From Bryoerythrophyllum caledonicum (Eukaryota; Streptophyta; Bryopsida; Pottiales; Pottiaceae): a stretch of DNA of 64,000 nucleotides. Location of the stretch: assembly GCA_963971425.1 (NCBI GenBank), contig OZ020517.1, forward strand, positions 14,975,297 to 15,039,296, given 5' to 3'. A model generated the notes under the pieces. It was given only the letters and a program-made list of their open reading frames with translations. It made no database searches and was not told where the DNA came from. The translations under genes were made by a program, and so were the position numbers. Position 1 is the first letter of the stretch, and each line of letters starts with the position of its first letter. Below, piece after piece: positions 3,293 through 33,200 of the stretch.

Positions 3293-3298
3293 TCAAAC

Positions 3299-3671
3299 TG
3301 TCAGGTTCGACGCGTTGGAGGGTTTGTGGAGGTTGGTTTACGCGTTGTAAACCAACTAGGAGGTTAAATGGCCCAAGGAAACCCTAGATGCTAGCTTTAG
3401 TTGTTAATTAGAGTTAGTATTAGTGTTATTTGACTTTTAGGGCCTTGGTGGTGTCTTTTGACACCTCATTTGGGACTTGGAGTCCAAATGACCTCCACGT
3501 GTAGTGTGGGGAGACTCATCTTTCTCAAGTTGAGTCTCCCACGTGATGGAGTGAGAGAGTGCGTGCGTGCGTGCACTTCTTGAACTTCATTGTTATTATG
3601 CGTTCATTCTTTAAGAATGGCATTGGCTTGACTATATGTAGTTTATGAGTATTTACTACTTGTTTATTACT
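3299..3671 (+). repeat. 5' LTR (part shared with 3' LTR)
   Basis: These 373 bp match 14228-14600 with only two differences that I can find (G/A near 3336 and A/T near 3655), so insertion is recent. The copies diverge abruptly after 3671, so the true right edge of this LTR and the primer-binding site are uncertain. I did not find a convincing tRNA-complementary primer site. Confidence 0.85.
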
Positions 3672-5900
3672 TGAGAAAGATCATCACTAAGATATGAGTG
3701 TATTCCTAGTGATTTAGTGACACTTAAAACCTTCAAAATCTTGTGTTTGAGGTGTTTTTGAGCAATGTTTTAGTGCTGAAATTTTGTTGCAAAACCTCAA
3801 GTGTGCTTAGCTAGTTGGATGAGGATCATTAGATAAGATAAGAAAGGTGAGGTGGAGGATTACCTTTGCTAATATTTATGGATGAAAGTACGTTGACTTT
3901 ACGTACTTCATCCATTGTTTGGTCACGAGTAGTCTGCCTCAGATCCGTTTGGGAGGAGAGAGACGTCGCTAGACGCGGGGTCTGTGTGATGGCGTCGGAG
4001 TCTGTGTGCATGGTGACGTGAGGAAAGGGCGCGTGTGGTATGGGGCGCTGGACTGTGGAGTGCGAGGTCGGGAGCTAGAGGCTGGGGTGTGGGCGATGCA
4101 TCGTGGGCATGAAGTGCCGTGCAATGCAGCTTGAGGCCGGGGTTTGTGGGCACGAGAGCAGGGGAAGGAGCCGGGAACTCTAATGCTACTGCTGTTCGGA
4201 GCTTTGAGCGGGTGGCAACAAGGCGGTGGAGGGCTGGGTCGAGCACGAAGTCACGTTGAAGGCGAGGAGGTTCTGTTTGTTCGTGTGCAGGAACGTCGTT
4301 GGACTGTTCATAGATCCCGTCCAGGTTTTCTGCAAGACTGAGTGAGGAGCGACGGTGCAGTGTTCGCGCGTTGGGTGGGAGACGGGGTTGAACGGCTTTG
4401 GCACACCTCGGGGTGTGACTTGGAGAGCACGTACTGGCAGCAGTTTCACACGGGGGACAGTGCCGGGCCTCCTCATTCATAGCAGCCGTATTTGCCAGAC
4501 AACACTTGAGTGTGAGTGTATAAGAACGCACTAACTGTCTTGCTTTGCTAGACAAGTTTTGAGTAGTATATGGGAAACGTGGGGTTGTTAGTGCTGGAGT
4601 GAGTTGGCTGGTTTTCGGAATGGAGAGTGTACACTATGAGAGGTCGAGGAATGCAGGGGGGCTTTGTGTCTGGTCGGGAGAGGGGACAGAAGATCACCGC
4701 CTGCTGGTGCGGTACCCAGCGACGTGGTACAGACAGGATTCATCTCGGCGCAGACAGGAATCATGTCGGCTATCTGCTATCCGGATTATGATACTGCTGC
4801 CCGGCACCTACTGCTACTTGGCACTTATACCCTGAAGCTAACCATACCCTGATTTACTGTTGATATCCGATTCCTATACCTCTGCCCCGTTCTCCTGTTG
4901 ACAACCGGTTTCTTGTTGATAACCTGTTACTTATGTTATACCCTGTCCCTATGCTGATACCCTGTCTTCTGTTCCTACCCGGATCTGATGCTCATAACCG
5001 GTTCTGATACTGGTACCCTGTCCTGATCATGATACCCGGTCAGCGGCTTATACCCGGGAAGTGGGTAGAGGACCAGCAGTGACTGGTACCTGGGCAGAGA
5101 GTGGGTATCCGAGCAGTTGGATGGTACCCGGGGCAGTGATTGGTACCCGGTTACTTTAATGGTACCCGGTCTTCAGGGTTGATAACCGGGACATAGGATT
5201 TATATCCGGTAGTTGGTGCTTATACCCCGGATTGGCTCTGATACCCGGTTGAGAGATTATACCCGTATGTTGAGCTGATACCCGCCTTTTGGACTGACCC
5301 TGCTTGTGATTGATACCCGCATGTCTCTATTATACCCTGTCTGCCTGATACTTGTCCACTCTAATACTCTGGTGTGGGGCTGATCCTCGGTCCTCTACTT
5401 ATACCTTGGCAGCAGGTTGATAACCTGACCAGGGTTGATAACCTGGTTAGTGTTGATAACCGGCCTAGGGATTGATACCCTGGACATGCATGGTACCTAG
5501 GCTGCTCGGTTGAAACCGGCCCCTTGGTTGTTGACCGGTTGTGGGATTGATGACCTGCAATCGGGTTGATAACCAGCAGTCGGGTTGATGACCGGCTGTG
5601 GGGGTTGGCAACCGAGCTTGGGACTCATAACCAGGAGTAAGATACATTCGCCTAGTTGTAGATACACGGGTTTATGATATATGCTCAGATTTGAGCACGA
5701 TAGCCGCGCTGGGACCGCATGTGTTATTGCCATACTCGTATGAGGCTAGGAAGGCTTGCATGTGAGAATCAAGGTTTATTATGAGGGGTGATTGCATACA
5801 CAGTGCCTGGTAGGAGCAAAGTGGACGTTTGGAAGCTCGTAGGAACTCTATTAATATGGTTTGAGAATCTCAAGGGTATTTAAAACTCAAATTATGGACC
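3672..5900 (+). other. Long 5' leader of the retrotransposon
   Basis: About 2.2 kb separates the LTR from the first gag start. The part around 3900-4600 is GC-rich and has open frames on both strands with low-complexity products, which I treat as chance. The part from about 4780 to 5645 is a degenerate short-period repeat, described separately. Confidence 0.6.
4780..5645 (+). repeat. Degenerate ~19-bp tandem array of GATACCCGG / GATAACCGG motifs
   Basis: Roughly 40 variants of TTGATACCCGG or TTGATAACCGG follow one another, spaced about 18-22 bp. The clearest run is 5412-5640, where GGTTGATAACC-like units repeat about every 19 bp. The core alternates between ATACC, TAACC and GTACC. The array lies upstream of gag inside the retrotransposon leader. 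Confidence 0.8.
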
Positions 5901-6422
5901 ATGGAGGGAAGAGGTAAGGCTAGAAAACCCGAGAGGGCTAGTGGGTCGAAGGTGGAAATTAATGGCGAGGTGTTGGACACCTTGATCGATTGTTTGCAGA
6001 GCTTACGAGTGAAAGGTTCTCCAGCCACAGCAAGTGGTAGCCACGGGGACTTTGAACTTTCTCCCATAGCAAAATCTCGCTCGGGGCCTCAGAGTTTGCA
6101 CAAACCAGGCACGAAGGTGTTGAGTGTAGAATCAGTGAAGTATTGGACTTCACTAGGTGGGGTCCAGAAGATTCGTTCACTTCGGACAAAGGAGGGAATT
6201 CCAGCACCACTGTGCCGTGCTCGTGGGCAAGTGGGGGTCGAAGACTTGGTAACTGGAAGTAAGGCCGTGGTTCTTCGAAATTCTGGATCCAGATACGGTA
6301 TAGAGGTTGAGGACTTCTCTTCAGGCATCCAGTTACCCACCTTCTCCCTCATTTTCACCGAGTTCGAGAGCGAAGGGTTTTTATTCCACACTACCTGGCA
6401 GTGGGAGATTAACACGTGGTAG
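5901..6422 (+). pseudogene. Retrotransposon gag, N-terminal segment
   Basis: The open frame of 173 codons starts MEGRGKARKPERASGSK and ends at TAG 6420. The same frame reads sensibly through a further 40 codons to a second TAG at 6540, after which coding sense passes to another frame. There is no strong homology by eye; I assign it to gag by position, charged composition and continuity with the next segment. The first ATG after the leader at about 5901 is a plausible polyprotein start. Confidence 0.55.
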
Positions 6423-6523
6423 GAGCGTGCCTCGAGTGTGTGGGATACTCTTACCTTAGAGTTATTGGACTGGGAAGTGACACCTACGATTTATGCTCCA
6501 GAGATGAGAGGAACCCATGAGGC

Positions 6524-7021
6524 TTGGCATTTGTTCGAGTAGATCACAAAATTAGCAATCTAGAGAACTGTAAGGGTCCCGGGTTTACACGTAGAAATAC
6601 CCCCTTCTCAGTAGATGCTAGTGAGAGAGTGTTGTCTGAAATTCGTGGTCAATCGGAAGAGGTAGAGGAGAGTGCTTTGCCACTGGTGGAAGAGGAGGAA
6701 TTTTTAGAAAGCCCGCAAGTGAGTGTTCAGGTTCTAGTTTTACCCATAAAGCCTTACCAATCATATTTTGATTGGGAGGAAATGGCTTCACCATATGGAG
6801 GTGGGGAAAGAGGGGTACGAAGATTTTCAGGTGCCACGGGCACCATCGAAGTCGATGACTTCAAGAGGGAGTTCACAATGTGGTGTGAACTCCAGAAGTC
6901 ACGTAAGCCCAACTTCAATCCGTATATGGTGTGGAGAGCCTTGTTTGGGTGTTTGGAGGGAGCACCACTGGCAGACTACGGAGAGTTCGAGGCGGCTCAT
7001 TTCACCGAAATCATGGCCTAG
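6524..7021 (+). pseudogene. Retrotransposon gag, central (capsid-like) segment
   Basis: This 165-codon stretch is in the same frame as the large open frame that begins at 7046 and is separated from it only by TAG 7019. It has an acidic linker and then a segment with FKREFTMWCELQKSR, typical of the start of a Ty3/gypsy capsid region. Position and frame show it is part of gag; the upstream junction with the 5901 segment needs a frameshift. Confidence 0.6.
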
Positions 7022-7045
7022 AGAGACTTCTACGCACCGAACTAC

Positions 7046-10000
7046 GTGGATGTGTTCGGTGGAGCACCGACGGTGACCCCCCCACTCTTGTCCAAGCGGA
7101 AGATGGAAGAAGGCACGAGCTCAACAGAGGATGTGGAGCAGCCGGAGGTACTGGTAAATCATCCACCTCCATTCAATCCCACCGTGGAATTCTTCGTGCA
7201 ACTCTATAGAGATTACCAAGGACAGAGGGCGGATAAGATGAAGGCCCTTCGTTCCTTCACACGTGGAGGTGACGAGTCTCTGAGAGAGGCTCATGCGAGA
7301 TTAAGGAGACTAATTTCAGCCACTCACGGAGTTACAGAACAGCACGCAGTGCAACATTGGTACAGTATCCTGGATAAGGAGTTGAAGACCTTGGTTCGCA
7401 ATGAGGCGTTGCGATTGGGTGTACCCACGACACTACGGTTTGTTTTTGAGACTTCGGAGCGGATTGAGATAAACTTACTGGAAGAGAAGGCAGCCATTGG
7501 CTTTTTCAAACGTGAAGAGAAGGTCCCAGAGAAGGTTAAGGTGGCCAAGGTGGCCATTCCTTCGTATACTGAAGAGTCTGGTGCCTTGTGCTTCAAATAT
7601 GGGAAGCCTGGACACCAGAGGAAGGATTGCAAGGAAGGCAAGACCTCCACACCTCAGACTGGAGGTTTTTGCTCTGGTTGTGGTATCAAGGGGCATGCAA
7701 AGGCCAGCTGCTGGAAGCTTCATCCAGAGTTGAAGCCCACGGGGAGCAAAGGAGCTAAAGGAGGCAAAGACAAGGAATCCAAGACCATTGGAGGAGAGAA
7801 GAAGAGCTGGAAGGCCAAATTTGCCGAGTTGGAGGCCAAGATGGAAGCTATGAGTGCCAGTACCAATGTGGTAGGTAGCAAGCCTCAGGTTACTCCCAGT
7901 TTTTATGCTGGGGGCGGTTTTAGCTCTGTGGATGATGAATTTGGAGATTTTATGTTGAGTGGCATGGCACTCGCCATCAAGGATGGCACACAAGAGGCCT
8001 ATACTCTCACACGGAGCCATAATCTAGTTTCTGAGGATATTCCACGTGGAGCTACTCCGACTCTCGATCCACACCATGGAAAAGATAACCGACAAGCCAG
8101 GTTGCCACAATCCTTCACGTTAGAAGAGATGGTACCCACGTCGTCCATGGTTCCTCCACCACGACCAGTGGCGACACCCACACGAGCCTTACCACGAACA
8201 GGAGGACTCATAGGAGGTTCTGGAGCACTTATGGAGGCAACTACTTCCGTGTGGGAAGCCTCGTTATTTTCTGCTAAGATGTTGTCACAGGATGGCTTCA
8301 GTATGGCAGAGGTCTTCAAAAGTGTGGCCTCAATGTGTGAGTTGGATAACTCCACGGGGATTAATGTGTTGAAGACAGAGATAATCCAGGCAGAGGAGAG
8401 CCAGAGTGACAACGTGGAGGGGCTACTTTCAGCAGCCATGCATGTGAAGACAATGGCCGCTAGACCTGCGATTGAGAGATCATCCATTACCCCTGGTGTG
8501 GTAGTAGTTGATAATTCCCAAGATATTTTTCAACTCGTTGGGCCTAAGGGGAAGATATTTGTACCTCGACGTGTGCTTCTGGATTCGGGAGCTCAACCTT
8601 TGATGCTGGGAGCGTCTGCTATGGAAGGGTTGGGATTAACTGGGGATACTTTGGAGAAGTGTCCATGGACCATTAGCACATCCATGGGGGGTACAGAGCA
8701 CGCGACAGGGATCACAAGGACTGAGTTGGTGTTACAACTCAACCAAAGTGATGTGGCAGATGCCAGTTCTATGAAGGTGAAGGCAATCGTTACGGAGGCC
8801 AAGTCGTATGATGTCTTGGTGGGCTCGGCGGTGCTATACCCTATGGGATTCACCTTGGATTTCTGGGAGGAGTCAGCAAGCTATAGACCAGGATGGCAAG
8901 CCGGAGATGGGCGGAAGGCTCAGGTGCCAGCTCAATTTGTTCGAGTTCTTACTGGTAACTTAGCTGACGTGTTTGCCTTCTCTGGATGTATGAACATGAA
9001 ACCTTCATGGTTTCAGATAGGTTTTGAGGATCCTTCTATGGTTGACCACATTTCAGAGAAGGTGGATGCCTACATGAGCAACACGAGTGGTGGAGAGGAA
9101 GAACGATACAAACCTGGGATTGAGGCGGCATGGAGTAACACCACCCAGTTGAGGGAGGCCGCGGAGTTAGCAGTGGAAGAGGCATGGCAACAATCTATGC
9201 TACCACAGATGCAACAGGAGACTGGAGTTGACCAAGACATGGGGCCTCCGTTAGACACTGCTACTATCCATTGGAAGGCACCAATGGATGGTATCGTATT
9301 ATTGGAGCTCTTCGGAGGAATTGGCACAGGCTTGGCAGCTGTTTTACAAGCTGGGATCAAGGTTAAGCGCTACATTTACGTGGATGTAGATGAAACAACA
9401 AGGCATGTGGCCAAACGTCACACACGGAGGCTGAGGACTCAATTCCCAGAATTGTTGGCCACTAGTGCCATCAAAACCTCCTTCTCTACACTTGTGGGTG
9501 ATATTTCCTTGTTGTCAGAAGATGACATTTACCGAGTGGGTCATGTGGACCTTGTCATTGTAGGATGGCCTTGCCAAGGCATGTCTATGGCAGGCAATCA
9601 GAATGGGTTAAAGGATTCCCGTTCTTCCAGGTTCTTTGACATGATTCGAGTGCTTCGATTGCTTCAGACTTCTCAGAGGCAACCGCCTGGTTATATTGTG
9701 GAGAACGTGCCCGTGGTGAGCAGTTCGAGGTCTAGGACACTCGAGAGTATGCATAGGGTCCATCAGACTCTGGGATTGCCAGTGTTAATTGATGCGGCTG
9801 CAGTAGGGTCCAGGGCACATAGACCACGCTTGTGGTGGACAAACCTGGCACCAACCGAGTTGCTACAGTCCGCGGTGGGTCGTCTTAAACGCCCTAATGT
9901 GTATGTGAGTGACATTTTGAATCCTCACAGGACACCACGGCGCGTGTATCACAATGACCAGGCACCATTAGCGGTGGTTAACCGCAAGGGGGAACCACGT

Positions 10001-10087
10001 AGGGCCTTGCCCACGTTGGTTAGCTTTGCACGGTCTTATGCCTTCAAGGATAATGGACCTGGACTTGTATGGGATTCATTATCCTAG
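7046..10087 (+). pseudogene. gag (nucleocapsid)-protease-cytosine methyltransferase polyprotein segment
   Basis: This 1013-codon open frame continues gag after TAG 7019. Residues about 30-170 have retrotransposon capsid character (FFVQLYRDYQG, RSFTRGGDESLREAHARL). Two zinc knuckles follow: the first has lost its second cysteine (C182-F-K-Y185, then H190 and C195), while the second is intact (C209, C212, H217, C222). A lysine-rich linker and a long low-complexity region lead to an aspartic protease with DSGA at residues 513-516. From about residue 747 a C5-cytosine methyltransferase begins: FGG motif I at 756-758, PCQ motif IV with catalytic Cys843, ENV motif VI at 886-888, and SRAHRPR at 922-928. 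The frame stops at TAG 10085 before methyltransferase motifs IX and X, which continue in the same frame. Confidence 0.9.
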
Positions 10088-10270
10088 GAAATGGTGGAGC
10101 CCAATGCAAATGAACGAGAGAGAGCCATGGAGTTTCCCACAGGCACCACCGATGTGCCTGGGATTTCAGAACCACAGAGACGATTTTTACTTGGTCAGGC
10201 CATGGATTTGAATTGCTTGACTTGGATTGTTTCCTTAGTGGTTGCTGGACAGAAGCGGTTAGCTTCTAGT
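9284..10270 (+). other. DNMT3-like C5-cytosine methyltransferase domain in the retrotransposon
   Basis: This family transfers a methyl group from S-adenosylmethionine to carbon 5 of cytosine in DNA. Motifs appear in the usual order: I (LLELFGGIGTG), a GIKVKRYIYVDVD stretch like the DNMT3 segment after motif I, IV (DLVIVGWPCQGMS), VI (YIVENVPV), VIII (AHRPRLWW), then across TAG 10085, IX (NERERAMEFPTG) and X (RRFLLGQAMDL). Motif X and the spacing after motif I are closest to animal-type DNMT3; the order is not the permuted one of plant DRM enzymes. PCQG rather than PCND in motif IV is more like DNMT1. All visible catalytic residues are kept; the only defect is the TAG. It is fused in frame between protease and RT, so it would be made as part of the polyprotein. 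Confidence 0.88.
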
Positions 10271-10483
10271 TTGACTAGTTACATGGGTTATTATGAGTTG
10301 CGGGCGACAGGAGAACCACTTGCCTCTGTCAGGATGACAAGCAAGGTGGTTGGGGGCGAGAGGGCCTTGGCACCTCATCCATGGAACATGTGGGATAACG
10401 CAAATATTTTTGCGACCACCAAGGCAATAGATCTTCACTATGGAGGGGAGAACTGGAGTGAAGGGAGCAGATTGGCTCACTAG
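10091..10483 (+). pseudogene. Methyltransferase C-terminus and linker to RT
   Basis: This continues the 7046 frame beyond TAG 10085. It begins with methyltransferase motifs IX-X and then runs into a segment of unknown function (GYYELRATGEP, NMWDNANIFATTKAIDLHYG) that ends at TAG 10481. The frame goes on as an acidic linker to TAG 10634. The segment after motif X may be a target-recognition extension or merely a spacer; I do not recognise it. Confidence 0.7.
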
Positions 10484-10645
10484 AGGATGGATTTAGAAGA
10501 TGTTGTGGAGAAGATTTTCTTGGAAGAACTCACAGCTCTTCACATGGAAGAAATTGATAAATTGGGTCAATTGGAAGGACTCGGGAGTGTTATTGAGGAG
10601 GAAGGAGGGGAGTCTCCTTCACTGGGGATTCAATAGCAACCAAGG

Positions 10646-11926
10646 GTGGAAAACCCTGCTCCAAAGGAACCGAAGGAGGTGGTGATTAAGGACACTTGGA
10701 AACCAAGAGTAGGCCTGGCGGATGGAGCAGTGGAGGCGGAGAAACATGAGTTCCTGAAGTCGTATTTAGATTGCTTTGCTTTTAGTTTACATGATTTGGG
10801 AGTGTTGAAGGGGCAAGAAGTGCGTATTAACTTAACCGACGAAGCACCAATTTATCGAAAGCCATACAAGTACAGTGACATGGAGCGGAAGATGATTCGT
10901 GCTCGCACTGAAGAATTGATGGCTGCAGGGTTGGTGGAGTTGGCTCTTCCAGATTGTGAGTATGCATCAGCAACGGTTATGCCATCCAAGAAGGACATTT
11001 ATGGTAATTGGACTGAGAAAAAGATGTGTGGTGACTATAGGAGAATTAATAAATTCACTAAGTCAGACCGTTATGCAATGCCAACTCCTGAGGAGAACTT
11101 TGAGGCCATTGGCCATGCCAAGGTGTTTAGTACGTTGGATTTACGCTCTGGATACCACCAGATTGGATTGAGAGAGGAAGACAAAGAGAAAACCGCGTTC
11201 TGGGGCATTGACAGGGATGGGAAGGACCGGTTGTTTCAATGGAAGTTTCTACCGTTTGGATTGAAGAATGCTCCAGCAGAATTTCAAAGGGTCATGGACA
11301 GAGTATTCTCGGGGCTGGATTTCGTGAGATGCTATATTGATGACATCATTGTCTTTAGCAGGAATCGAAAAGAACATAGACTACATTTAATGGAGATTTT
11401 TGCTAGATTGAGGCTTCATGGATTAAAGTTGCACCCTGGTAAGTGCAAATTCTACTTTGATCGCATTGAGTATTTAGGCCACATGATTTATCCAAGTGGA
11501 TTAGGTGTGGTAGCCAGCAAAGTGGAAGTAGTGATGTCTATTCCTAGACCACGAGATGTTAGTAGGTTGAGAGCATTTCTGGGGTTGTGTAACTATTATA
11601 GAAAGTTTGTCAAAACTTTCAGTGCTATTGCCAAGCCATTAATCATGTTGACAAGAAATGATCAATCTTGGATTTGGGGAGATGAGCAAGAGGTGGCCTT
11701 TCAACAATTGAAAGACCGTTTGGCATCAGCACCAATACTTCGGAGGCCTATAGTAGGAAGGACATACCAGCTACACACAGATTGGAGCTCGTTGGGGATT
11801 GGTGCAATATTGACGCAAATGGATGATGATGGTAAGGAATTTGTGATTGCGTATGCCAGCCGGTCCAACAACAATGTTGAGGCTCAGTATAGCTCGTATG
11901 AGGGAGAATGCTTGGCTGCGATATAG
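10646..11926 (+). pseudogene. Reverse transcriptase and N-terminal RNase H
   Basis: This stays in the same frame as the methyltransferase. The RT fingers and palm are clear: YRKPYKYSDMERKMI, CGDYRRINKFT, STLDLRSGYHQIGLREEDKEK, FLPFGLKNAPAEFQRVMD and the catalytic YIDD at residues 230-233, followed by LGHMIYPSGLG and a connection domain. RNase H begins at QLHTDWSSLGIGAIL and continues through YEGECLA to TAG 11924, where related elements usually have tryptophan. RT plus RNase H copies the element's RNA into DNA in virus-like particles. Length and motif order are normal for Ty3/gypsy. Confidence 0.93.
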
Positions 11927-11992
11927 GCAATTGCTCATTTTCGGTGTTATCTTTATGGTAACGAATTTCTGTTAGTTACAGATCATCAGCCG

Positions 11993-12862
11993 TTGAAATG
12001 GTTGATGGAGTCCGATAAATTGACAGGAAAATTGGCACGGTGGGCCTTGATGTTGATGGAGTATGACTTCAAGGTGGTTCATAGGGCAGGTTTGGTTAAT
12101 ATGGATACAGATGGCCTTAGCCGCAATCCAATTCCAAACCAAGAGGATGATACAGGTGCTAGGTGGCATACTGAGGGTGAAACCGACCCGTTGCCAGGGT
12201 GGCATTGTTCGGATTTTCTGGGGATATTGGCAATAAAAGGAGACACCACTGGGGAAGCTACTGTGGCCACAGTAGATGAGGATGGAGGTGAGGAGTCTGG
12301 GGGCGCCAGAGATATTCACGAAGACACGAATGTGATGCAGTTTTTACAAGATGGAGAAACGGTGGCTTCATGGTCTCATAAAGAGAGAAATAGGGTTCTA
12401 CAACGAGCTAAGATGTTTGTGTGGGAGAGGACTCACCTTGTGAGAGTGTGGCCAGATGGTACTAAGAAGGTAGTACTAGCTCCAATAGAGAGAGTGAAAT
12501 TGATTAAGGACACACATGAGGACCTTGGACACTTTGGAGTGCGAAGGACTTATAGTCTACTTCAGATTCACTACTGGTGGCGTGGAATGCAATCCCAAGT
12601 GCAAGCTTTAGTGGCTCGGTGTATGGTGTGTGACCGGGTACGAGCGTCTTTTAACGCTCCAATGCCTCAGTTACAACCTTTGCCAATTATGGGCTTAGGA
12701 TATAGATGGAGCTTGGATTTTGCAGGTCCATTGCCAGTGACACCTCGACACAACAAGTATGTGTTGGTAATCATCGAGCATTTCTCGAAATGGATAGAGT
12801 TAGTGGCATTACCTGATAAGTTTAGTAGGGAGCTGCATATTCATTTCTTGACCGTGTTCTGA
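11993..12862 (+). pseudogene. RNase H C-terminus, integrase zinc finger and start of integrase core
   Basis: The frame before 11993 already reads FRCYLYG and TDHQPLKWL, the end of RNase H. A variable linker follows, then the H2C2 integrase zinc finger (HEDLGHFGV with a downstream CMVC pair) and the first catalytic Asp of the DDE core in WSLDFAGPLP. Near 12830 one base is lost or gained: the good protein sense moves to another frame (AAYSFLDRVLSRFGAPVEVL), so the stop at 12862 is a frameshift artefact. Confidence 0.88.
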
Positions 12863-13521
12863 GTCGCTTTGGAGCTCCAGTAGAGGTACTTATAGACCAA
12901 GGCAGAGAATTCTTGGGTGAGTTTCAGACGTTGTGTGAGCAAGCGATGATTGATCATCGCACTACTTCGAGGGATCACCCCGAAGCAGATGGATTGGCGG
13001 AGCGCATGGTGCAAACCGTCAAGAGAGGGCTCCGGAAGTACAGCTTGAAGAAAGGACATCACCAGGATTGGGATTTACAGCTACCATGGATAGCAATGGG
13101 CTATCGGTTCAGCAAACAAGCATCCTTGGCGTCTTTTTCACCTTACTATCTATTGTTTGGAAGGCACCCGGTTTTACCGAAGGCCATTCAAGCAGATGCT
13201 GACACCGTGTTGGCTAACATGGACAATCCAGACACGTGGGCTCAAGTGTGTGAGCAACGTGCAGAGTTGTTCAAAAGGGTGATGCCTATGGCATTGGAGA
13301 ACCTCTCCATTGCTCAACATCGGGATACGTTGCGTTATGCTACAATATGAGGAGGTGGTTATCGACCGCAGGTGCGGCGTTTCTCACCTGGAGACTATGT
13401 GTATTTGCAGCAAGCAACGCCCACCACCTTGGATGTGACAGTAGGAACGGTAATCTTGAGAGTTCGTGAGATGAAGGACTCAGGAGTGTTAGTGTTGGAG
13501 GGTCGTGATGGCAAGAAGTAG
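12830..13521 (+). pseudogene. Integrase catalytic core and C-terminal domain
   Basis: In the frame used from about 12830, the second catalytic Asp lies in LIDQGREF and the catalytic Glu in DGLAERMVQTVKRGLRKY. The C-terminal domain includes LLFGRHPVLP and, after TGA 13348, a GDYVYLQQ strand typical of the integrase tail. TAG 13519 interrupts the tail inside GRDGKK-KDH. Downstream NCAPCHLP matches the end of many Ty3/gypsy integrases. Confidence 0.85.
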
Positions 13522-13554
13522 AAGGATCACACACGTAATTGTGCACCTTGTCAT

Positions 13555-13761
13555 TTGCCACACATTGATGGGACAATACACCCTGGTCTCTCTCACATCT
13601 CTGTTGGATTACGTTGTCGGTTGTGTGGTAGTGCCAAAAGGGCAGCCACTATGGTTATTTGTGACTTATGTTCTACGGGGTGGCATTTAGAATGCTTAAC
13701 TCCACCTCTGTTGGAAGTACCAATGGATCAATGGTCTTGTCCTGAGTGTTTAGCACGTTGA
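13555..13761 (+). pseudogene. C-terminal PHD finger of the retrotransposon polyprotein
   Basis: Directly after the integrase tail, in the same frame, comes a C4-H-C3 zinc finger: CRLC, then ICDLC, then GWHLEC, then WSCPEC, ending with stop TGA 13759. Spacing and the conserved W before the last CxxC pair are those of a PHD finger, a family that reads the histone H3 tail. Many plant gypsy elements carry a chromodomain here; this element carries a PHD finger instead. A natural guess is that it steers integration or the methyltransferase to particular chromatin, but that is inference. Confidence 0.85.
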
Positions 13762-13991
13762 GGGTCTGAGTGGACAAAGTCTAGCATTAAAAATATGTTA
13801 GAGGCGATTAACGATGGGGCTCTACTTGCACCCGGCCTACCCTTTGTTTGTTAAGTCTTTTAGCGCCTTTTCATGTGGATTACAGTGATTCTATGGTTTT
13901 GAGAGGTTTTCATTCGCGGTTATCATTCAGTTTACATGTAAACTGTGTGGTTCGCCGGTGTGAATGGGGCTTCAGCACGGGCGAAGGGGGC

Positions 13992-14225
13992 GAGTAAAGG
14001 GGTACTTGGAGACCGCTTACCACTTCTTGGTGTACGAGGTCATGGGTCATTTATTTCTTTTTCCCCAAGTCTGGATTGCTGAAAGTGTGTGTGCGTGCAT
14101 TGTATTATTGTTTTATAGAGGTAACGGTGGTGGTTATGTCACCGTTACTCTCGAGTTGTCTCTAACTGTGCGTGCTCACTTGATTAGCACGATGTTATCT
14201 TGGCACGATGCGGTTGTGCACGACA
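13992..14225 (+). repeat. Sequence upstream of 3' LTR, duplicated at the element's end
   Basis: These 234 bp (beginning GAGTAAAGGGG, just after a purine-rich run GGGCGAAGGGGGC that could be the polypurine tract) recur at 14601-14834 with about six differences. The first copy lies immediately before the 3' LTR; the second forms the last 234 bp of the element. Confidence 0.85.
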
Positions 14226-14227
14226 GC

Positions 14228-14834
14228 TGTCAGGTTCGACGCGTTGGAGGGTTTGTGGAGGTTGATTTACGCGTTGTAAACCAACTAGGAGGTTAAATGG
14301 CCCAAGGAAACCCTAGATGCTAGCTTTAGTTGTTAATTAGAGTTAGTATTAGTGTTATTTGACTTTTAGGGCCTTGGTGGTGTCTTTTGACACCTCATTT
14401 GGGACTTGGAGTCCAAATGACCTCCACGTGTAGTGTGGGGAGACTCATCTTTCTCAAGTTGAGTCTCCCACGTGATGGAGTGAGAGAGTGCGTGCGTGCG
14501 TGCACTTCTTGAACTTCATTGTTATTATGCGTTCATTCTTTAAGAATGGCATTGGCTTGACTATATGTAGTTTATGAGTATTTTCTACTTGTTTATTACT
14601 GAGTAAAGGGGTACTTGGAGACCGCTTACTACTTCTTGGTGTACGAGGTCATGGGTCATTTATTTCTTTTTCCCCAAGTCTGGATTGCTGAAAGTGTGTG
14701 TGTGTGCATTGTATTATTGTTTTATAGAGGTAACGGTGGTGGTTATGTCACCGTTACTCTTGAGTTGTCTCTAACTGTGCGTTCTCACCTGATTAGCACG
14801 ATGTTATCTTGGCACAATGCGGTTGTGCACGACA
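14228..14834 (+). repeat. 3' LTR, chimeric
   Basis: 14228-14600 matches the 5' LTR; 14601-14834 instead matches 13992-14225. It starts TGTC and ends GACA. The right part differs from whatever follows 3671 in the 5' LTR. A template switch during reverse transcription, or recombination between two elements, would produce this. Confidence 0.75.
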
Positions 14835-15430
14835 AAACCAATAACTACACTAATAATGATATATAGGATTCCATGACAAGTAGTGTAGTTATCCATGTTC
14901 TCTTAATTTCACTAAATGCCAATTGGATGGCAAAATGATGTGTAGACCCTTGTGATTGTTGCGCCACCGTTCTCGTCGCCTTTCACTAGGTATACATGCC
15001 AATGACCGCCACAATAAGCAATGTGCAATTCGTAGGGGATGAATAATAATCAAACAAATTTGAAGTGATAGCCAATAGGATTACCAATTCAACTCAAGTG
15101 ATTTCTAATTTTTCCAATAATTTGTGAATTAGTTATGAATTTTCAAAGCGGTTTGCCATACTTATTGCCACTAAGTACCCCCATTAGCCCCGACCAAAGT
15201 AAGGGATCTTGACCAATAGCAAGCCTTAAATGGAAATTGTGAGGTGGAAATGGGGTGGGAGATGGGGCGGAAGTAGACAATGTCCAATGGTGGTGAAGGG
15301 TTGCAGTTTTGACAGATTGGCAATTAGCACGTAGGTTAGTGTCGGTAATGGAGGAAATTGGCGCAAAGAAAAAGTTGGCTATGGCATATATAACCCTATC
15401 AAAGAAATTAAAGTAGTCAAAAGACTTCAT
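14835..15430. repeat. Noncoding DNA with a fragment of the inverted-repeat element family
   Basis: About 15040-15240 is a diverged copy of the internal part of the elements at 41994-42349 and 49063-49424; shared words include GATAGCCAATAG, AATTAGTT and CAAAGTAAG. No gene is visible. It abuts the LINE remnant. Confidence 0.5.
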
Positions 15431-21284: not shown

Positions 21285-24200
21285 ATGTCGACAGCAGCAT
21301 CCCAGGAAGTTGAGGGTTATAAGCCTAATGTGCCGTCCTTTAGAGTTGCAGCTTTTCGGTGATTCTCGTATACGGAGTGTGTGTTCGGTCTGCATATTCG
21401 CACACGAGCGACATTTGCCGTGCTTTTTTCTGGACGTTGAGCAAGGAGCTGAGAATCATGGTGCGGTGGCTTGCCTTCTTGTTGTGGTTATTCAGCTTTT
21501 CTATTTGGAAGACGTTCTTTGTTCGTTTGTGTTGGAAGCCCTCCTGTGTTGATGTTGCGGATGATGGTGTTCGGGTGCAGGTGTTGTCGGGCAGTGACAG
21601 CGGGTTGCGATCAGATGAGGAGGAAGCTGATGCATCTACGGAACATCGAAGTAAACTTTCAGATTATTTGGCGGATGTGCTCTCAAAGGTTTCATTAAGT
21701 GAGCAGGTTACCATTTACTTCAACGTTGACCACTATGGATACGGGCCATTGACATGCGATGAGGACGCACAGGTGAAGGAGATCTTGGGAGCCATTGCTA
21801 CTTCCACCATTCTCAAAGACTTGGGGTTTTATAATATTTGGCCAATGACATGGGAGGGAGTGTCAGAATCCTTGCTCTTCAATCGAAGTGTGAAGAAATT
21901 ATCACGTATAGGCTATTCGAGTAATGAAATTATTACACATGAAATGATGTCGAGAGTGTTGTTGGAGAATACATGTCTAGAGGATGTTGATCTTAGTCAT
22001 ATGACAATGGACAACAAGTGTGCGGTGTTCGTGAGTAATGTGTTGCGCCACAATCGGACTCTAAAACGCCTTAATTTGGGTGGGTGTGAGATGGATGAAG
22101 AAGGATGGAAAGTGTGTCTTGATCCACTCTCAGGGGGCGATGATCATAATTCCGTCCTTGAGCACTTGGGATTCTCTGTTAGATCAAGAGCAGAGTCCCA
22201 TTGTGATGTGCACATTGGCAACATGGTTAGTAGAAACTCCTCCCTCCTTTCTTTGGCCATTCTAGTGAATGATGCTGTTGGCACAAGTGTGGTTTCAAGT
22301 ATTGGAGAAGCCCTTCACTTCAATAGGCAACTCTCAAGTTTGGATATTTGTACTATTGAAGGAGCAAAGGTTGTATGGAAGGGATTATTTACATCATTGG
22401 CACCGAATGCAGAAGGACAACAAGCAAATACCAGTCTTCAAGAATTATTTTTGATTGGCGGTTATCCTGGGGAGGATGTTTGGAAAATTGAACATGATTC
22501 CTTGTGTGACATGCTACGAGGCAATACATCCTTGATTAAATTCGGGTGGTGGTTAGATGATAGCACTGAAATTGCCCATGTGATTCAACTCTTGGAATCC
22601 TTGAAAAGCAATAAGTGTTTGGAGATATTGGACCTATCCCAATTAGAAGTAATGAAGGGTCGAAGAGTATTGGGGGCAATCATAGATCTCCTTGATGAAA
22701 ATCACTACTTGAAGGAAATCATGCTGAATGGTACACCTCTCCAGGAGGATGGAAGTGCTGAAGTGGTAACGGCAGCACTAGACAAGAAGTCGAAGGATCG
22801 GTTATGGGAAGTGGTGCAAGGCATGGCAACAACAACACCCACTTCTGGAAGAGTTTTCTTGTGTGGCGAGCCATATGCAGGTGAGCTTGTTTGTTTTACA
22901 TTTGTTTGGTTTGGAACCCTATCTATATCAATGGTAAACATGTATGTATTATGATTGATCAACATTTAAAGGAATGTAGTAATTTCTAAAGGTTATGAGA
23001 GTTTGAGTTATAAACATGTTAGAACTAGGAATGATTCAGATGAAATAATAGAGGATGCATCTTATCCATCTTATTTTGATATTGAAGGTATGAATTTAAG
23101 ATAGATTTGATGTGTTGGTTATACGAAAGTGGATAATATATTTCAGATGATCAAACTTTATACGAACTTGGATCGAACTTGGATTGGTAGTCTCTACAAT
23201 GTGAGTAGAAAGTAATCAATCATTTATGTGTTTGATAATAATGACACTTATCCTCATATCAGACTAGTACTTAAACATGAGATTGTTCACATTACCTTGA
23301 ACATACTTTCATCAAAAGTCATGTTCAAAATTAAATATATATAGAGCATTATAACTTCTCCATTCTACCTACTTCCTATGATTATATATGGCCTTACCTA
23401 ATTATTATTAACAACTTGAGACGACTACCATTGACTTAATAATCATTCATGACTTTCATGTTTTAAGGTCATTCTACACTAATCTAAGCGTTTTATTCAA
23501 GAGTGAAACGTGATTGGTTATTATCAATGATTGTACCATACCATCTTACAGGTAAAACTACTCTTCGTAAGACAATAATGAAAAATTATTCGAGTGCGAT
23601 TGGAAAACAATCAATCAAAACGAGAGTGAAAGCAATTTTCACGGGAAGGAAAAGAGATAGAAGAGTTCCAAGTGCCAAAGATATTGTTGATGAACGAACT
23701 CGAGGAATTGAGGTACATAACCTTCAATGTGAGGATATCGTTATGACTATCTGGGACATGGCTGGAGAAGAAGAATACCATGCTTTCCATGATTTGGTGG
23801 TTCCAAATCTCCCGATGAGTGGAAGTTGTTGTTCATTTGTACTTGTATGCAATCTTGCATACTGTCATGATAACCCACATGAATTGAAGGGAATTGAAGA
23901 GATCATTATAGAGCTCCAATATTGGTTGAAGTTCATTGTCTCTAATTCAAGAATTTCAAATCTATATCAACCTCATGTGATGATTGTGTTCACTCACATC
24001 GATGAGTGCTCATGGGATACAACTCTTATGCTCCAAGCAACCAAGGATTTGAAGGGAAAGTTTGAAGAGTTCCTTGACTTTGAAGGTCATGATTTTGTGA
24101 TCAATGCCAAGACTTGCAAAGATTCAGTTGATGGTGTGTTGAAGGCCATGGTCGACCACTTGAAAAGCCTATTGGCAAGGGTGCCAAAAACTATTGAAGC

Positions 24201-26591
24201 TTGTGACAAGCTACAACAAGTCATAGCCAAGAGTATCAAAGACAATCCGCATGAGTTGGTTTTGGATTGGGATAGATTTTCTAGGATGTGTGATGAAGTG
24301 CGAGAGTTACAAATGGTGGATGCAACAAATCCAAACTTGATAAAGAGGAGGAAAGAATTTGTTGCTTCATCCTTGCATGATAGAGGGCATGTGATATATT
24401 ATGAAGACCTGAATATGGTGATTGTGAATCCCCACTTGTTTTGTCATGGCATTATGGGTGAGCTCATGGATGGCTTTAAAATGTCAAGGTATAAATCAAA
24501 TGCACAACATGGCATTACAAAAGGAAATCTGGAAATGGCATTGTCAAGCACACCTACAGCGAAACAACACAAGGTGGCATTGAAGGATGTTCTACAAGTG
24601 ATGCAAAAGATGGAACTTTGCTATGAGCAAGAGGATGGAATCATTATGATTCCATCAACATTGTCAGATGGATATGGGAAGTTGACTTGGCCAATGAAGT
24701 CCAATGCATCCATTTCTTATAGGTATATTGGAAGGAGATTGACAATCGATGATAAAGAGAAGACGCTTCTTAGTCTTGGGTTTTTTCCTCGATTACAAGT
24801 ATGTCATCATCTCATTCCACTTTTAATTTGTACTTGTTTGATGATAAATTGTAATTGAGGATAGATTTTTCATGTTTGAATAGGTCCTTCTCTATAGGAA
24901 TCATGAAATACTTTTTAGAGATCAATGCTTATTAAATAACTGAAGTGCTCAATTTCTTAATTTTAAGTTAGTGGTTTGAGGGCTCTGTATTTGAAGATGG
25001 CTTGGTGTCTGGGGACTCATTATTGATGTTGAGGCATTTAGAACTCAATAGTTGTTTGATGCAACAACAATGTATTCATAAACATATCTACTTGTCTTTC
25101 ATGAAAAGATATTGTTGTTGGTAGAGTAAATTGCCACATGATTTCACAATCTCATCATTTGTACTATATTTCCATTCTTGAAATCTTAATATTCAATAGT
25201 TCTGTTATACAAATTTCAATTGCTTTGTGCAGGTTTCTCTACAAAAGGAATTTGGAAGAGCTTGTGAAATCATGAAAAATATGATCAAGTTCATTCATAA
25301 TGGGATGGAGACCATCATTGAATACAGTGGATCTCCTGCTTTTGACATTGATATTTTGATGCGGTCAAATGGGAACGAAGACATAATTAAGTTGGATTCT
25401 CTTCAAAGGCAACTCATCAAACGCATTGTCACACTTTGTGCACATCCCACATTGGGTTGTCCAGGAGTGAAACTCGTGGACCACATCATGCGGCCAGCGT
25501 GTGCTGAAGAACTTGTTGCATACAAATATAGGTCCGAGCATCAAGTTGTTATGGTAGAGAAGTTGAAACAAATGGTATTGGACCGTGCTGACCTTGCTTT
25601 GAAGTATGATTGGCGTAGTGAAGGGCCAGTACTAAAGATGGGTTGTGATGATGCAAAGACATTGTTGGGGGATCAAATGTCTAATGATGTGTTGAATCAA
25701 CTTATGGTTGATTTGAAGATGATTGAATGTCAAATTTTGGGGGATAAGGGATCATTGGATGTCATTGGCAATGCAAGGTCAATGGGCATCACAAAGGCTT
25801 CAAAACCATCACATGTGACCATGGATGACTTATGGATCAAGATGGACAAGCTTGAAGACACAATGAATCAAAGATTTGATAGGCTTGAAGAGAAAATGCA
25901 AGAGATCAAGTTGCTTCAAGAGAAATTGTTGCCTAAAGTGTGCAAAAGATTGGAGGAGTTGGTAACATTCACGGTGGAGTTTCAACAACACAAATATCCA
26001 CGCCTTCCTTATTTTTTAGATTGTCTACATGGTGGTCTAACACACATGGTGCCCGGGATGCGAAAGTATGTTCTCCACTTGTTATGTGAACACAAAGATG
26101 GATTTCACATTGTTGAAGATCAAGAAGGTTGTGAATTGTCAATTGGCACGGAGTCAACACAAGCATTTCAAAATGTTGTAAGGTGGGGGTTGAGAGTTTT
26201 CACACTCTTGTTGAAAGTGGGGGCACACGTTGGAGCGGGCATGGGTTCAATGGTTCCAGACCTTGGAAAGGCTTTCCTACTTGTATTAGATACACCAGGG
26301 ATTGGGCTTGATGAAGTAAACTTGGGTACAACTCGAACTTTGATGGTTGATGCAAAGCCACACATTTCACATACTAAAGAGAAGGTGGCTGAGCAATGGT
26401 TGATAGATGTGTTGAAAGAAAAGTGCAAAGGTAGCAATGATATCAAAAGAATGTTCAAGCTTCAAAAGGTGATGTACACGAAGAATGATGATGGTGAATC
26501 TGGAGGTGTGGCATGGATTTGTAACAAGCACTATGAGGAAGGTAGACAGAGTAGTACCTTGGAATTGTTGCTTTGTGACATGGATGGTTGA
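21285..26591 (+). CDS. LRR-Roc-COR protein (TORNADO1-like), gene A
   Basis: Proposed exons are 21285-21329, 21581-22880, 23552-24798 and 25233-26591: phases fit, total 1316 residues, close to the roughly 1380 of Arabidopsis TORNADO1. The first tiny exon (MSTAASQEVEGYKPN) is inferred because both copies preserve it and because the following 250 bp contain an indel between copies. Exon 2 encodes leucine-rich repeats (for example LRHNRTLKRLNLGG). The Roc GTPase P-loop GEPYAGKTT is split by the second intron. The other GTPase motifs are TRGIEV, DMAGEEEYH, THIDE (K of the usual N/TKxD absent) and NAK. A COR region follows (LHDRGHVIY, VNPHLFCHG, GFFPRLQV), then a coiled-coil stretch (MDKLEDTMNQRFDRLEEKMQ). 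In land plants TORNADO1 acts in growth symmetry; the role here is unknown. Confidence 0.85.
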
Positions 26592-30228: not shown

Positions 30229-33200
30229 CTTCAATTGATGCACGAGGGACACCATGGATGACGGATCAAGAACACTGCCAAAATTGATAAAGGTACAACC
30301 AGTGACATTCCCAAACACCATTCCATTGGATCCATCCTGGAATAAAATAAAATTAGAAGACATTGATTAAACTACACTAACCAAATATTGCTTCAAGACA
30401 ACTTACCCCATCCTTCAACGTAGAAGCAGAAATAAAGCCTGATTCTTCCTTCACCAAACCAGATAGGTCGGTCTTGAACACCTAAAAGACATACGTAAAT
30501 CCAAAAAAGTTTATCATCAAAAACATCAAAAACATCAAAAAACTTCAGAAACATCACTGCACATACCTTATCAGATGAGTATACTTGATTAGATACGTTG
30601 TGAACAACTTCTACAACAGCAGTCAAGTCCGCCTCCTAAAATATTACAAAGAAAATAATTAGAAAAAAATATAAAAGGAATAAACACAAACATATATACA
30701 CCATATACCTTAAAAGCCTTGACTTTCTGTTCTTCTTCGAGGATCAGGTCTCCAAACTTTGGTACTTTGCCCAAGGCAAGAAGCAATGAATCACCACTTA
30801 TCGCTCGTTGACAAACGCTCATGTCAACATGACCAAAATTGGCATCATATTGCTGGTATGATTTTTCATCGCGGTGTCCAATGACACGCATACCTTTCTC
30901 CGATGGTATGTTTGCCTCTTGCATCCTAGTAATGCCAATACGACGTGGAGTCTTGTTACTAAACTTTTGCCCCGCCACGTCAATGCCCGGAGTAGAGTCA
31001 ATCAGATCTCTCACAAGGTTTTCCAAAGGATTCTTGCCCATGGGTCGGGGGAGATACCACACTTTACTAGAGTGCTTAATCTTCAACTTAGGCATCAGGA
31101 ACAAGGGATGACCAATTTTGCCGAATTTCTGCTCCATCACCTTCTTCTCCGGCCTGTGCTCGATAATGGTTTTGAAAGTCAAGATGATATCCGGATCTGA
31201 CATATCCACTGGGCGCCGAAGCGAGTGGCTGGCATAGCGGTCTACGGTAAACTTATAATTCTTCGACAATATCGGTTTATAGCTGCCACATTCCCACATA
31301 AAAAAAGCATAAAGAACAAACTAACAAACATTAAGCTAAAACAACAATCAATAAAATGAAATGAACACAACCATTCAATGAGCAACCATAAATATCTTTG
31401 TTTCTCTATATTCAACTTCGCCTAGAAATGTAATAATGAAGCCGAAGGAAAGAGATGGCAGTGAACTGAAGGCAATCCAACTGACAGACAAGTAAAGAAC
31501 CAAAAAAGGAAAATGTACGGTCTCAAACTTGTCAAGAATAGGTTCACAACGAACCAATAGGACAACAAACCAAGCATTGCAAGACATGAGACTCTCTTGC
31601 TCTCTCAATCTAAACAAGAAACCTCTCTCAAAGAGGTTGAGGTTAAGCAGGAGGAAATCTTAGCCTATGAGACGGCCATAGCAGAAGAGGAAAAGGAGAC
31701 AATGGAAAGGAACAAACAATGACTCAGTAGAAGTTGGAATGTTCAATTTACCGAAGAGAAATAAACAATGACTCAGAAGAGAAACAACATAACTCACCGG
31801 AGATACTCTTGTCCATTTAAGTGAACCAATTCGAACTGGTCAACGACAGTTGACCGCAGCTCCTCTTTGCCGCATATGAACATGTTTCGGCAAGCATAGT
31901 ATCCGAGCCTCAAGTTGCACCCATGCGGATGCTCGAGACTAGCAGCAGCACTCCTTAATACACGAACCTCCTCTTCCAAAGAGAGTACATCGTTGGTACT
32001 TACTCGGGTACCTAGACCTTGTTTGAATGTTCATCGTACCGCCGCCGTCCCTGCATCCTTCACCTTTCGATAGCGGACATCTTTGAAGATGTCGAAGGGA
32101 ATCTCTACAACCGACGTCTCAGTGATACGCTGCTATTGCCTCTTTCGAATAACTTGACCAATCGCCCGCAACAGATTCTGAATTTTGCACAACAAACTTC
32201 AAAAAAAATATCAGCCACCCAAATAACAAACAAAGCAAAGACAAATAAGATTAGAGAACTGCACTTACGAGCCAGGGGGGTAGAGTGTGCCATCTTTCTT
32301 CGTAACTTGCAAGGCAAAGTCGTGTAACATCTGCACGAAGCCTCGAACGTCGGGCTGCTCCGACAGTTGCTCGACACTCAAATCAACAGAGTGCCCAAAA
32401 CAGACGCGCCATTCGTTGAAAGCATTCAATGCCCACGTTTCAGAGTGTCTACTTTTGCGGTCACCTCCGGCAGCCACAATTGCGACCTCCTTCTTGTCAA
32501 GTTGAAGGAACCGACGATACTCTCCATTCCCGCTAGCACTAAAAGATCCACCACTTTGGCTCTCGCTTCCAGCCACGGATGGAAGACCACAATCTTCTCC
32601 TTCATCAAAGTCTGCAAGGCTGGGAGTAAAAGCCCCTACATCCGGATCATGATTGTCCTTATCGAGCGCCTTCTCATCTAAGCTCTCCAACTCCAACTTA
32701 TATTCATCTTCCTTCTCGTCATCAACTGCATCATCATCAATGCATCATCATCAACTGCACACGTAACCAAAATAACAAATCAAAATAAACAAATGCACCC
32801 TTAACAATGGGAGTTAGTAAATATAGAATGCAACCATACCATCAGAGGCTTCTCATTAGGAACTTTGGCGGTTGGCGCGACCTCGTGAATGCTTGCACAA
32901 GCCCCGTAACCATTGCCTACAGATCACATATACAATCAGCAACCAATCCATAACAAAGTAAAGGAAAATCAATATCATAACCTCATAACACAAACAAGTA
33001 AAGGAAAAAGAAAAAACCTTCACATGTGCACGAGCGGCCACAAACAACACACGTGCACACATCTGCGGCGCACAGTATCAAGACGACAAATCAATGTAAA
33101 CACATTAGCAATGAAAACACATGGCAAACAAAACAAACCTTTGACGAAAAGGACATCTAAAAACGAGTACTGCCTTTTTATTAAAAGTGCCATAATCAAG

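Follow-up and report, generated by a model that had tools for sequence, protein, structure and literature searches.

A 64,000-bp stretch of the Bryoerythrophyllum caledonicum genome (GenBank assembly GCA_963971425.1, contig OZ020517.1, positions 14,975,297 to 15,039,296, forward strand; hereafter the window) contains a single Ty3/Gypsy retrotransposon at 3299-14834, in which a DNMT3-type C5 cytosine methyltransferase domain lies between the protease and the reverse transcriptase (RT). It is very likely that this element represents a large and recently active family, in whose polyprotein the methyltransferase is a regular component and which would replicate and mark its copies by the steps proposed below. 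The domain is considered a standing part of the family because 144 or more copies of it exist in this genome, and because it exhibits low ratios of nonsynonymous to synonymous substitution (dN/dS), keeps its nucleophilic cysteine, and yields a tree concordant with that of RT.

Layout of the element and identity of its methyltransferase

The element is flanked by the 4-bp duplication AAAC (3295-3298, with an identical copy at 14835-14838) and reads, on the forward strand, gag, protease, methyltransferase, RT, RNase H, integrase and PHD finger. The gag region (6782-8250, 3' limit approximate) is similar to the relatives P0003 and P0039 and contains a CCHC knuckle (7670-7711), its match to PF03732 being weak and below the Pfam cut-off. 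The aspartic protease (8560-8850, limits approximate) has the motif LLDSGA (8576-8593) and a match to PF13650 that is also below the cut-off (E 0.0017). After the methyltransferase come RT and the start of RNase H at 10646-11926 (PF00078, 4.6e-32; PF17919, 2.5e-23; YIDD at 11333), and then the rest of the RNase H region with a DDE integrase at 11993-13347 (PF17921, 5.8e-16; PF00665, weak; HHCC at 12515-12631). The PHD finger forms the C-terminus of pol at 13612-13758 (PF00628, E 1.4e-11; PHD proteins in the Protein Data Bank, PDB, from 1.3e-12). The gag-protease-RT-RNase H-integrase order with a DDE integrase and the short target-site duplication are those of Ty3/Gypsy elements. Identical complete long terminal repeats (LTRs) at both ends, which also define that group, are replaced here by split repeats arranged as A-coding-B-GC-A-B. 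No chromodomain was present among the Pfam matches of the window pieces scanned, or of the relative L162.

L162 is a 9285-bp contig (CADCWO010000201.1) filed under a cyanobacterial metagenome-assembled genome, probably as a bin contamination. It encodes gag, protease and methyltransferase, then a single in-frame stop, and then RT, RNase H, integrase and PHD finger, all four of the latter above the Pfam cut-off. Its methyltransferase is about half identical to that of the window. The contig has identical 127-bp ends and assembles as a 9158-bp circle with one B-A junction, which may be either a real circle or a collapsed repeat.

The repeats of the window copy are young, with 2/373 differing positions in A and 6/234 in B. 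Most of its methyltransferase lies in an open reading frame (ORF) of 1013 aa at 7046-10087, whose closing stop (10085-10087) falls inside the domain. The initial annotation had placed the domain at 9284-10270; the start of this interval was retained, and the end was revised, as the interval crosses that stop and the domain continues to approximately 10345. The further in-frame stops are at 7019 (7019-7021, in gag), 10481, 10634 and 11924. Near 12860 the reading frame changes, and the new frame is itself interrupted by stops at 13348 and 13519. Two of the stops, 10481 and 10634, fall in the spacer between methyltransferase and RT. Since the open frames of L162 are also interrupted by a stop in this spacer, at least one of the two may be natural rather than a sign of decay.

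The ORF matches PF00145 (DNA_methylase) with an E of 2.2e-13 and 50.8 bits, against a cut-off of 22. The motifs of C5-methyltransferases, numbered as in the initial annotation, follow in canonical order: I (9305-9331), IV with its PC (9563-9586; nucleophile Cys codon 9572-9574, residue 843), VI with ENV (9695-9712), VIII with RxR (9815-9838) and X (10193-10237). In the window copy the in-frame stop separates an ALPTLVS stretch (10004-10024) from motif X. When the domain of the window was compared to solved structures, DNMT3A was the closest (2.7e-12), followed by 3C, 3B, M.HhaI and DRM2. A profile built from seven domains gave DNMT3A at 5e-24, 4onj (a plant DRM, labelled just "DNA methyltransferase") at 1.3e-14, DRM2 at 3.4e-11, M.HhaI at 1e-9 and DNMT2 at 5.4e-6. 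None of the 57 PDB sequences that it matched up to E 1 bore the name DNMT1 or CMT. The AlphaFold2 model of a liverwort relative, P0007, was of high confidence across the domain, with 72 to 97 per ten-residue block, and the best 50 of its 867 structural matches were all DNMT3A, 3B or 3C entries, some with 3L. The domain is thus closest to DNMT3 among solved C5-methyltransferases, by sequence profile and, for P0007, by fold. With the sequence, profile and model comparisons all favouring DNMT3, a DNMT3-like identity is well supported. The initial annotation had described a gypsy element with a DNMT3-like enzyme between protease and RT, with ordered motifs, Cys843 as nucleophile, and a PHD finger paired with it; the Pfam matches, motif positions and structure comparisons bear out each of these points.

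Among 89 aligned enzymes, the nucleophilic cysteine is kept in 86, and the remaining three rows are gapped at that column. The proline that precedes it in motif IV is changed to glutamate in 25 of the 89 (9/48 and 16/41 in the two clades described below). The cysteine is present in every ungapped row of these, and the change is an odd one for a C5-methyltransferase.

A bacterial or phage origin of the enzyme was rejected on scans of GTDB and IMG/VR. Among the best 80 of 142 GTDB matches to the methyltransferase profile, the top one (L001, 51% identity over the whole domain) is on a contig binned with a cyanobacterium. We read this contig as a eukaryotic contaminant, because it encodes the same kind of retroelement. 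The other 79 share 23-47% identity, mostly over part of the domain, and the best 80 of 212 IMG/VR matches were weak (23-48%). Two scans with pol alignments gave no confirmed relative.

Copies, selection and relatives

The genome to which the window belongs comprises 437,360,962 bases in 894 contigs. A search of it with the domain found 144 or more copies, that of the window included, which are spread over many chromosomes and share 85-100% identity along almost the full 267 residues. This count should be read as a minimum, the search having scored 144 of 1885 first-look candidates. Such abundance excludes chance as the origin of the domain. The matched stretch is stop-free in 93 of the 144.

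Selection was assessed with the window copy and 20 stop-free copies taken across the identity range (210 pairs). All 206 pairs with dS above 0.02 had dN/dS below 1, with a median of 0.064, a value biased low by the choice of stop-free copies and resting in part on saturated dS at the upper end. The median was 0.313 for the 53 pairs with dS of 0.02-0.1, and 0.048 for the 96 pairs with dS of 0.4-2. Among 10 copies (34 usable of 45 pairs), the medians for methyltransferase and RT were similar, 0.123 versus 0.107, as recomputed without L214, the one RT piece of the 10 that was unreadable in frame. The methyltransferase domain is thus constrained much as RT is. A second, older lineage on the same chromosome (L184+L179) has the same gag-protease-methyltransferase-RT-integrase order, and its methyltransferase is nearest to the group of P0047, P0054 and L162. 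Next to this older copy, L179 contains another RT fragment, oriented the opposite way.

If the domain were a host DNMT3 fragment inserted once, as a passenger, in the window copy, the broken state of this copy, with a stop within the domain, would be readily accounted for. The 144 or more copies, the purifying selection, and the homologues found, with unchanged domain order, in liverworts and algae all contradict this, and we give the idea next to no credence. It was rejected on copy number and selection, and the capture proposed in the initial annotation therefore extends beyond a single copy, with homologues in several hosts.

For the reading of the methyltransferase as a standing part of an active family, several observations have to be set on the opposite side. 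Besides the dN/dS bias and saturation noted above, the window copy itself is decayed by the in-frame stops and the frame change listed in the previous section. Another copy (copy1, L183+L181) retains the A repeat, leader and gag pieces, and gave no protein-level match to four pol and gag queries, the methyltransferase included, for which reason it was classed as a partial copy. The observed/expected CpG ratio is 0.60 in the element, compared to a host median of 0.54 (25 stretches of 2 kb, range 0.25-0.92), which indicates no extra depletion and hence no CpG footprint of the self-methylation suggested in the initial annotation. Finally, a related enzyme from Klebsormidium nitens was inactive in yeast, a result that its authors called inconclusive (PMC5890265).

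When proteins were searched twice with the domain, 41 and 74 matches were obtained, together 98 different proteins. Only proteins of restricted length with short words in common with the query are within reach of these searches, so that the 98 are a sample. At least one retroelement feature, by profile or pattern, was present in 95 of the 98, the exceptions being P0007, P0027 and P0029. The named hosts are Marchantia polymorpha, Calypogeia fissa, Closterium sp., K. nitens and Chlamydomonas eustigma. Three Closterium gene models (P0027, P0037 and P0040) fuse Copia-type domains with this methyltransferase, and are probably nested insertions or model fusions. A PHD finger was recognised by pattern in 33 of the 44 relatives with an integrase. 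Its pairing with the family is weakened by the other 11: six of them end no more than 22 aa after the integrase match, and P0017, P0062, P0064, P0068 and P0097 extend beyond the integrase and lack it.

Two domain orders were seen. In the window element, and in those of liverworts, Closterium and Klebsormidium, the methyltransferase is ahead of RT; in C. eustigma and others it is found between RNase H and integrase. Of the 47 rows on the RT tree, the 32 that are RT-first lie on one side of a branch (99/97), and on the methyltransferase tree with DNMT3A (90 rows), 41 rows of the RT-first type lie on one side (100/98). The two trees share the same deep split, with no row of known order misplaced. 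The window is in a liverwort-containing set on the methyltransferase tree (16 rows, 100/97); on the RT tree it groups with a protein from Marchantia (100/98), the two being 65% identical over 193 columns. This agreement is tempered by four circumstances: 10 of 99 methyltransferase rows and 5 of 52 RT rows were dropped as too short; 12 of the 48 methyltransferase-first rows on the methyltransferase tree carry no order information; 8 of the 41 RT-first-type rows are fragments without RT, ordered from methyltransferase and integrase only; and P0095 groups with the window on the RT tree and with Klebsormidium on a quick methyltransferase tree.

How many times was the methyltransferase acquired? 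The clean split of the orders on both trees, with no intermediate seen, is what two independent entries, one before RT and one between RNase H and integrase, would leave behind, and we regard this as a possibility of some weight, though we lean against it. With DNMT3A as the outgroup (a single row on a branch of 3.0, in a tree made without green cellular DNMT3s), the root falls inside the methyltransferase-first set and the RNase H-integrase type is nested within it. This nesting favours one capture with a later move inside pol, as far as the sequences allow a judgement.

Gypsy elements bearing DNMT3 and DIRS-like repeats are known from K. nitens as KnitGypsy-Dnmt3 (de Mendoza et al., 2018, PMC5890265). 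That paper describes elements with Gypsy domains and, in Pol, a DNMT3-type enzyme that is not rearranged, under purifying selection, and A-coding-B-A-B repeats (legend to Fig. 4c), and both hallmarks of the kind, a gypsy pol with a DNMT3 domain and DIRS-like repeats, are found in the window element. The K. nitens protein P0081 (KFL_009030040) has a homologous methyltransferase and the same methyltransferase-RT-integrase order, and in both trees it lies on the window's side of the split, which places the methyltransferase and RT of the two elements in common descent. Judging from its name and layout, P0081 would be a copy of the published element. The link drawn in the initial annotation to the 2018 report is thus borne out by the K. 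nitens homologue and the matching repeat structure, and its suggestion of a distinct lineage is not upheld, on these same grounds of order, tree placement and repeats.

The window element differs from KnitGypsy-Dnmt3 in its host, whose genome contains at least 144 copies. Its PHD finger, its 4-bp duplications, the palindrome at the junction and the self-priming helix were not found described for KnitGypsy-Dnmt3 in the parts of the text covered. A 2025 survey, citing the 2018 paper, places such elements in streptophytes and dinoflagellates (PMC12344493). A paper on the Marchantia methylome lists five DNA methyltransferases (MET, two CMT and two DRM), and no mention of DNMT3 was found in the passages covered (PMC5784723). 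The plant host DNMT3 has the same DNMT3-type catalytic domain, encoded by a host gene outside retroelements (Yaari et al., 2019, PMC6453930). The element thus belongs to the KnitGypsy-Dnmt3 kind of 2018, and the apparently new part is the liverwort reach, the two domain orders and the end structure, none of which was found in print in searches of the open-access literature, which for the liverworts covered titles and the beginnings of abstracts. A literature search on TOC1 gave no result.

Split repeats, priming and a proposed replication cycle

The ends of the element are built of two repeats. A (373 bp, beginning TGTCAGG) stands at 3299-3671, before the coding part; after it come B (234 bp, terminating CACGACA) at 13992-14225, the dinucleotide GC, a second A at 14228-14600, and a second B at 14601-14834, the 3' end of the element. 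The second copies of A and B form a unit with normal LTR ends, TG..CA. A possible polypurine tract lies directly before the first B (13971-13991). The 3' ends were read in the window and in 19 others of the 144 copies, selected largely for their long open frames, and 14 of the 20 showed one A-B unit after B (B-A-B). In all six copies with both ends read, the element starts TGTCAGG, finishes CACGACA, and is flanked by an exact 4-bp duplication (AAAC, CCTC, GGGG, ATTA, ATGA and AGTT). The six include a copy without an A-B unit and one with three. The latter (L219+L224, on G000:C9) has B followed by three A-B units, mutually 99.6-99.9% identical, with AGTT around the whole. The B-A junction is the palindrome GACAGCTGTC (14222-14231 in the window) in 13 of the 15 copies having such a junction, the window's included, and the same 10 bp are present in L162. 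The DDE integrase and the 4-bp duplication separate the element from DIRS elements, which use a tyrosine recombinase and are not known to make a target duplication. SymbioDIRS-Dnmt3 of Symbiodinium, which combines a DNMT3-type enzyme with A-coding-B-A-B repeats, is such a DIRS element with a tyrosine recombinase (PMC5890265).

We infer from this end structure that it fits an integrase acting on a circular junction. The regularity has its exceptions, and these tell against such a reading: four of the 20 3' ends have no A after B in the stretch read, one has three A-B units, and one (L239) has no repeat; the junction has one change in L229 and is shortened in L232; an older copy (copy2) revealed neither palindrome nor self-priming pair; and no polypurine tract was found in L162. 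The split repeats might instead have arisen through linear integration of an element with a 607-bp A-B LTR, followed by recombination that moved a B copy. The normal TG..CA ends of the second A-B unit agree with this, and insertions with 0, 1 or 3 A-B units inside one target duplication can result when B copies exchange unequally. It would, however, require recombination to yield the same product each time, given the B-A-B order shared by 14 of 20 ends, and this arrangement has also been reported for the element of K. nitens. We consider this route rather unlikely.

The position at the border of A and the internal region is the usual one for a primer-binding site. A tRNA primer was set aside, as no TGG occurs within 3674-3760, after the first A, and it was for this reason that self-priming was tested. 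The 13 nt across the border (3669-3681) form a perfect reverse complement to 3518-3530 inside A, which would be in the 5' part of the RNA; none of 1458 control sites reached this length. The predicted RNA fold of 3517-3700, which contains the 13-bp helix, was better than 200 of 200 shuffles (z -3.57). The pair is kept in five further host copies, one of them about 88% identical over A, and in L162 with one base pair exchanged on both sides. In each region searched, the helix was the only inverted match of at least 9 nt at a distance of 60-500. The chromoviruses Tf1/Sushi and Tcn1 have normal LTRs. Self-priming has been described for Tf1/Sushi and predicted for Tcn1, and no mention of a methyltransferase or PHD finger was found for them in the accessible part of that source (Neumann et al., 2019, PMC6317226), whereas the window element has a PHD finger.

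These observations can be assembled into a proposed cycle. Following the layout of L162, the methyltransferase would be the C-terminal domain encoded by a frame that starts with Gag and protease, and the RT-RNase H-integrase-PHD frame would follow directly. As it would be made together with Gag and protease, it may enter the particle with the RNA or cDNA. Reverse transcription would be self-primed, and its product, with B-A as the LTR, would become circularised. The integrase would then open the circle at the B-GC-A palindrome, cutting after CA on both strands and leaving the usual recessed CA ends, as in retroviral end processing. A single LTR copy in the circle would leave no A-B unit, two would leave one, and four would leave three. 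Before or at integration, the methyltransferase might place 5-methylcytosine on the new copy de novo, and the PHD finger may read the histone H3 tail at the target site.

The role of the domain admits another answer. It may be kept to protect the cDNA, or to hide it from host sensing, rather than to cause silencing; in L162 the domain is part of the gag frame, which implies that it is packaged together with the cDNA, and de Mendoza et al. proposed such a role for dinoflagellate elements (PMC5890265). We regard this as a real possibility, not far short of an even one. Hiding, protecting and silencing roles are all discussed in the 2018 paper (PMC5890265). The family reaches liverworts, including the genetic model Marchantia, where the purpose of the domain is testable. 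A silencing enzyme that is conserved by elements which hosts silence would offer a handle on the co-evolution of transposons and methylation.

Taken jointly, a single DNMT3 capture by a gypsy ancestor before the chlorophyte/streptophyte split, one relocation inside pol, maintenance by selection, and integration from a circle cut at the palindrome form a tentative reading, which we think unlikely to hold in every part. If it were true, the lineage would integrate from circular DNA and not from the two ends of a linear cDNA. The coexistence of split repeats with a DDE integrase raises the question of which DNA form a retroelement integrase uses.

Neighbouring features of the window

No RNA families or tRNAs were found in the window. 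Two frames on the minus strand at 30589-32696 resemble, by eye only, the remnant of a tyrosine-recombinase (Crypton-like) element; in Pfam, one gave nothing and the other a weak unrelated match. An open frame at 62268-63068 matches the PolyA_pol head domain (2.3e-05) and is probably an exon of a CCA-adding enzyme. Two similar copies of an LRR/Roc-COR (Roco-like) gene lie at 21359-26591 and 53962-58956, about 32 kb apart. The first copy matches COR-A (5.6e-06) and Roc (0.00053), both below the Pfam cut-offs. The best four protein matches of the gene share 38-43% identity, and a match from Sphagnum jensenii shares 30% over 47% of the query.

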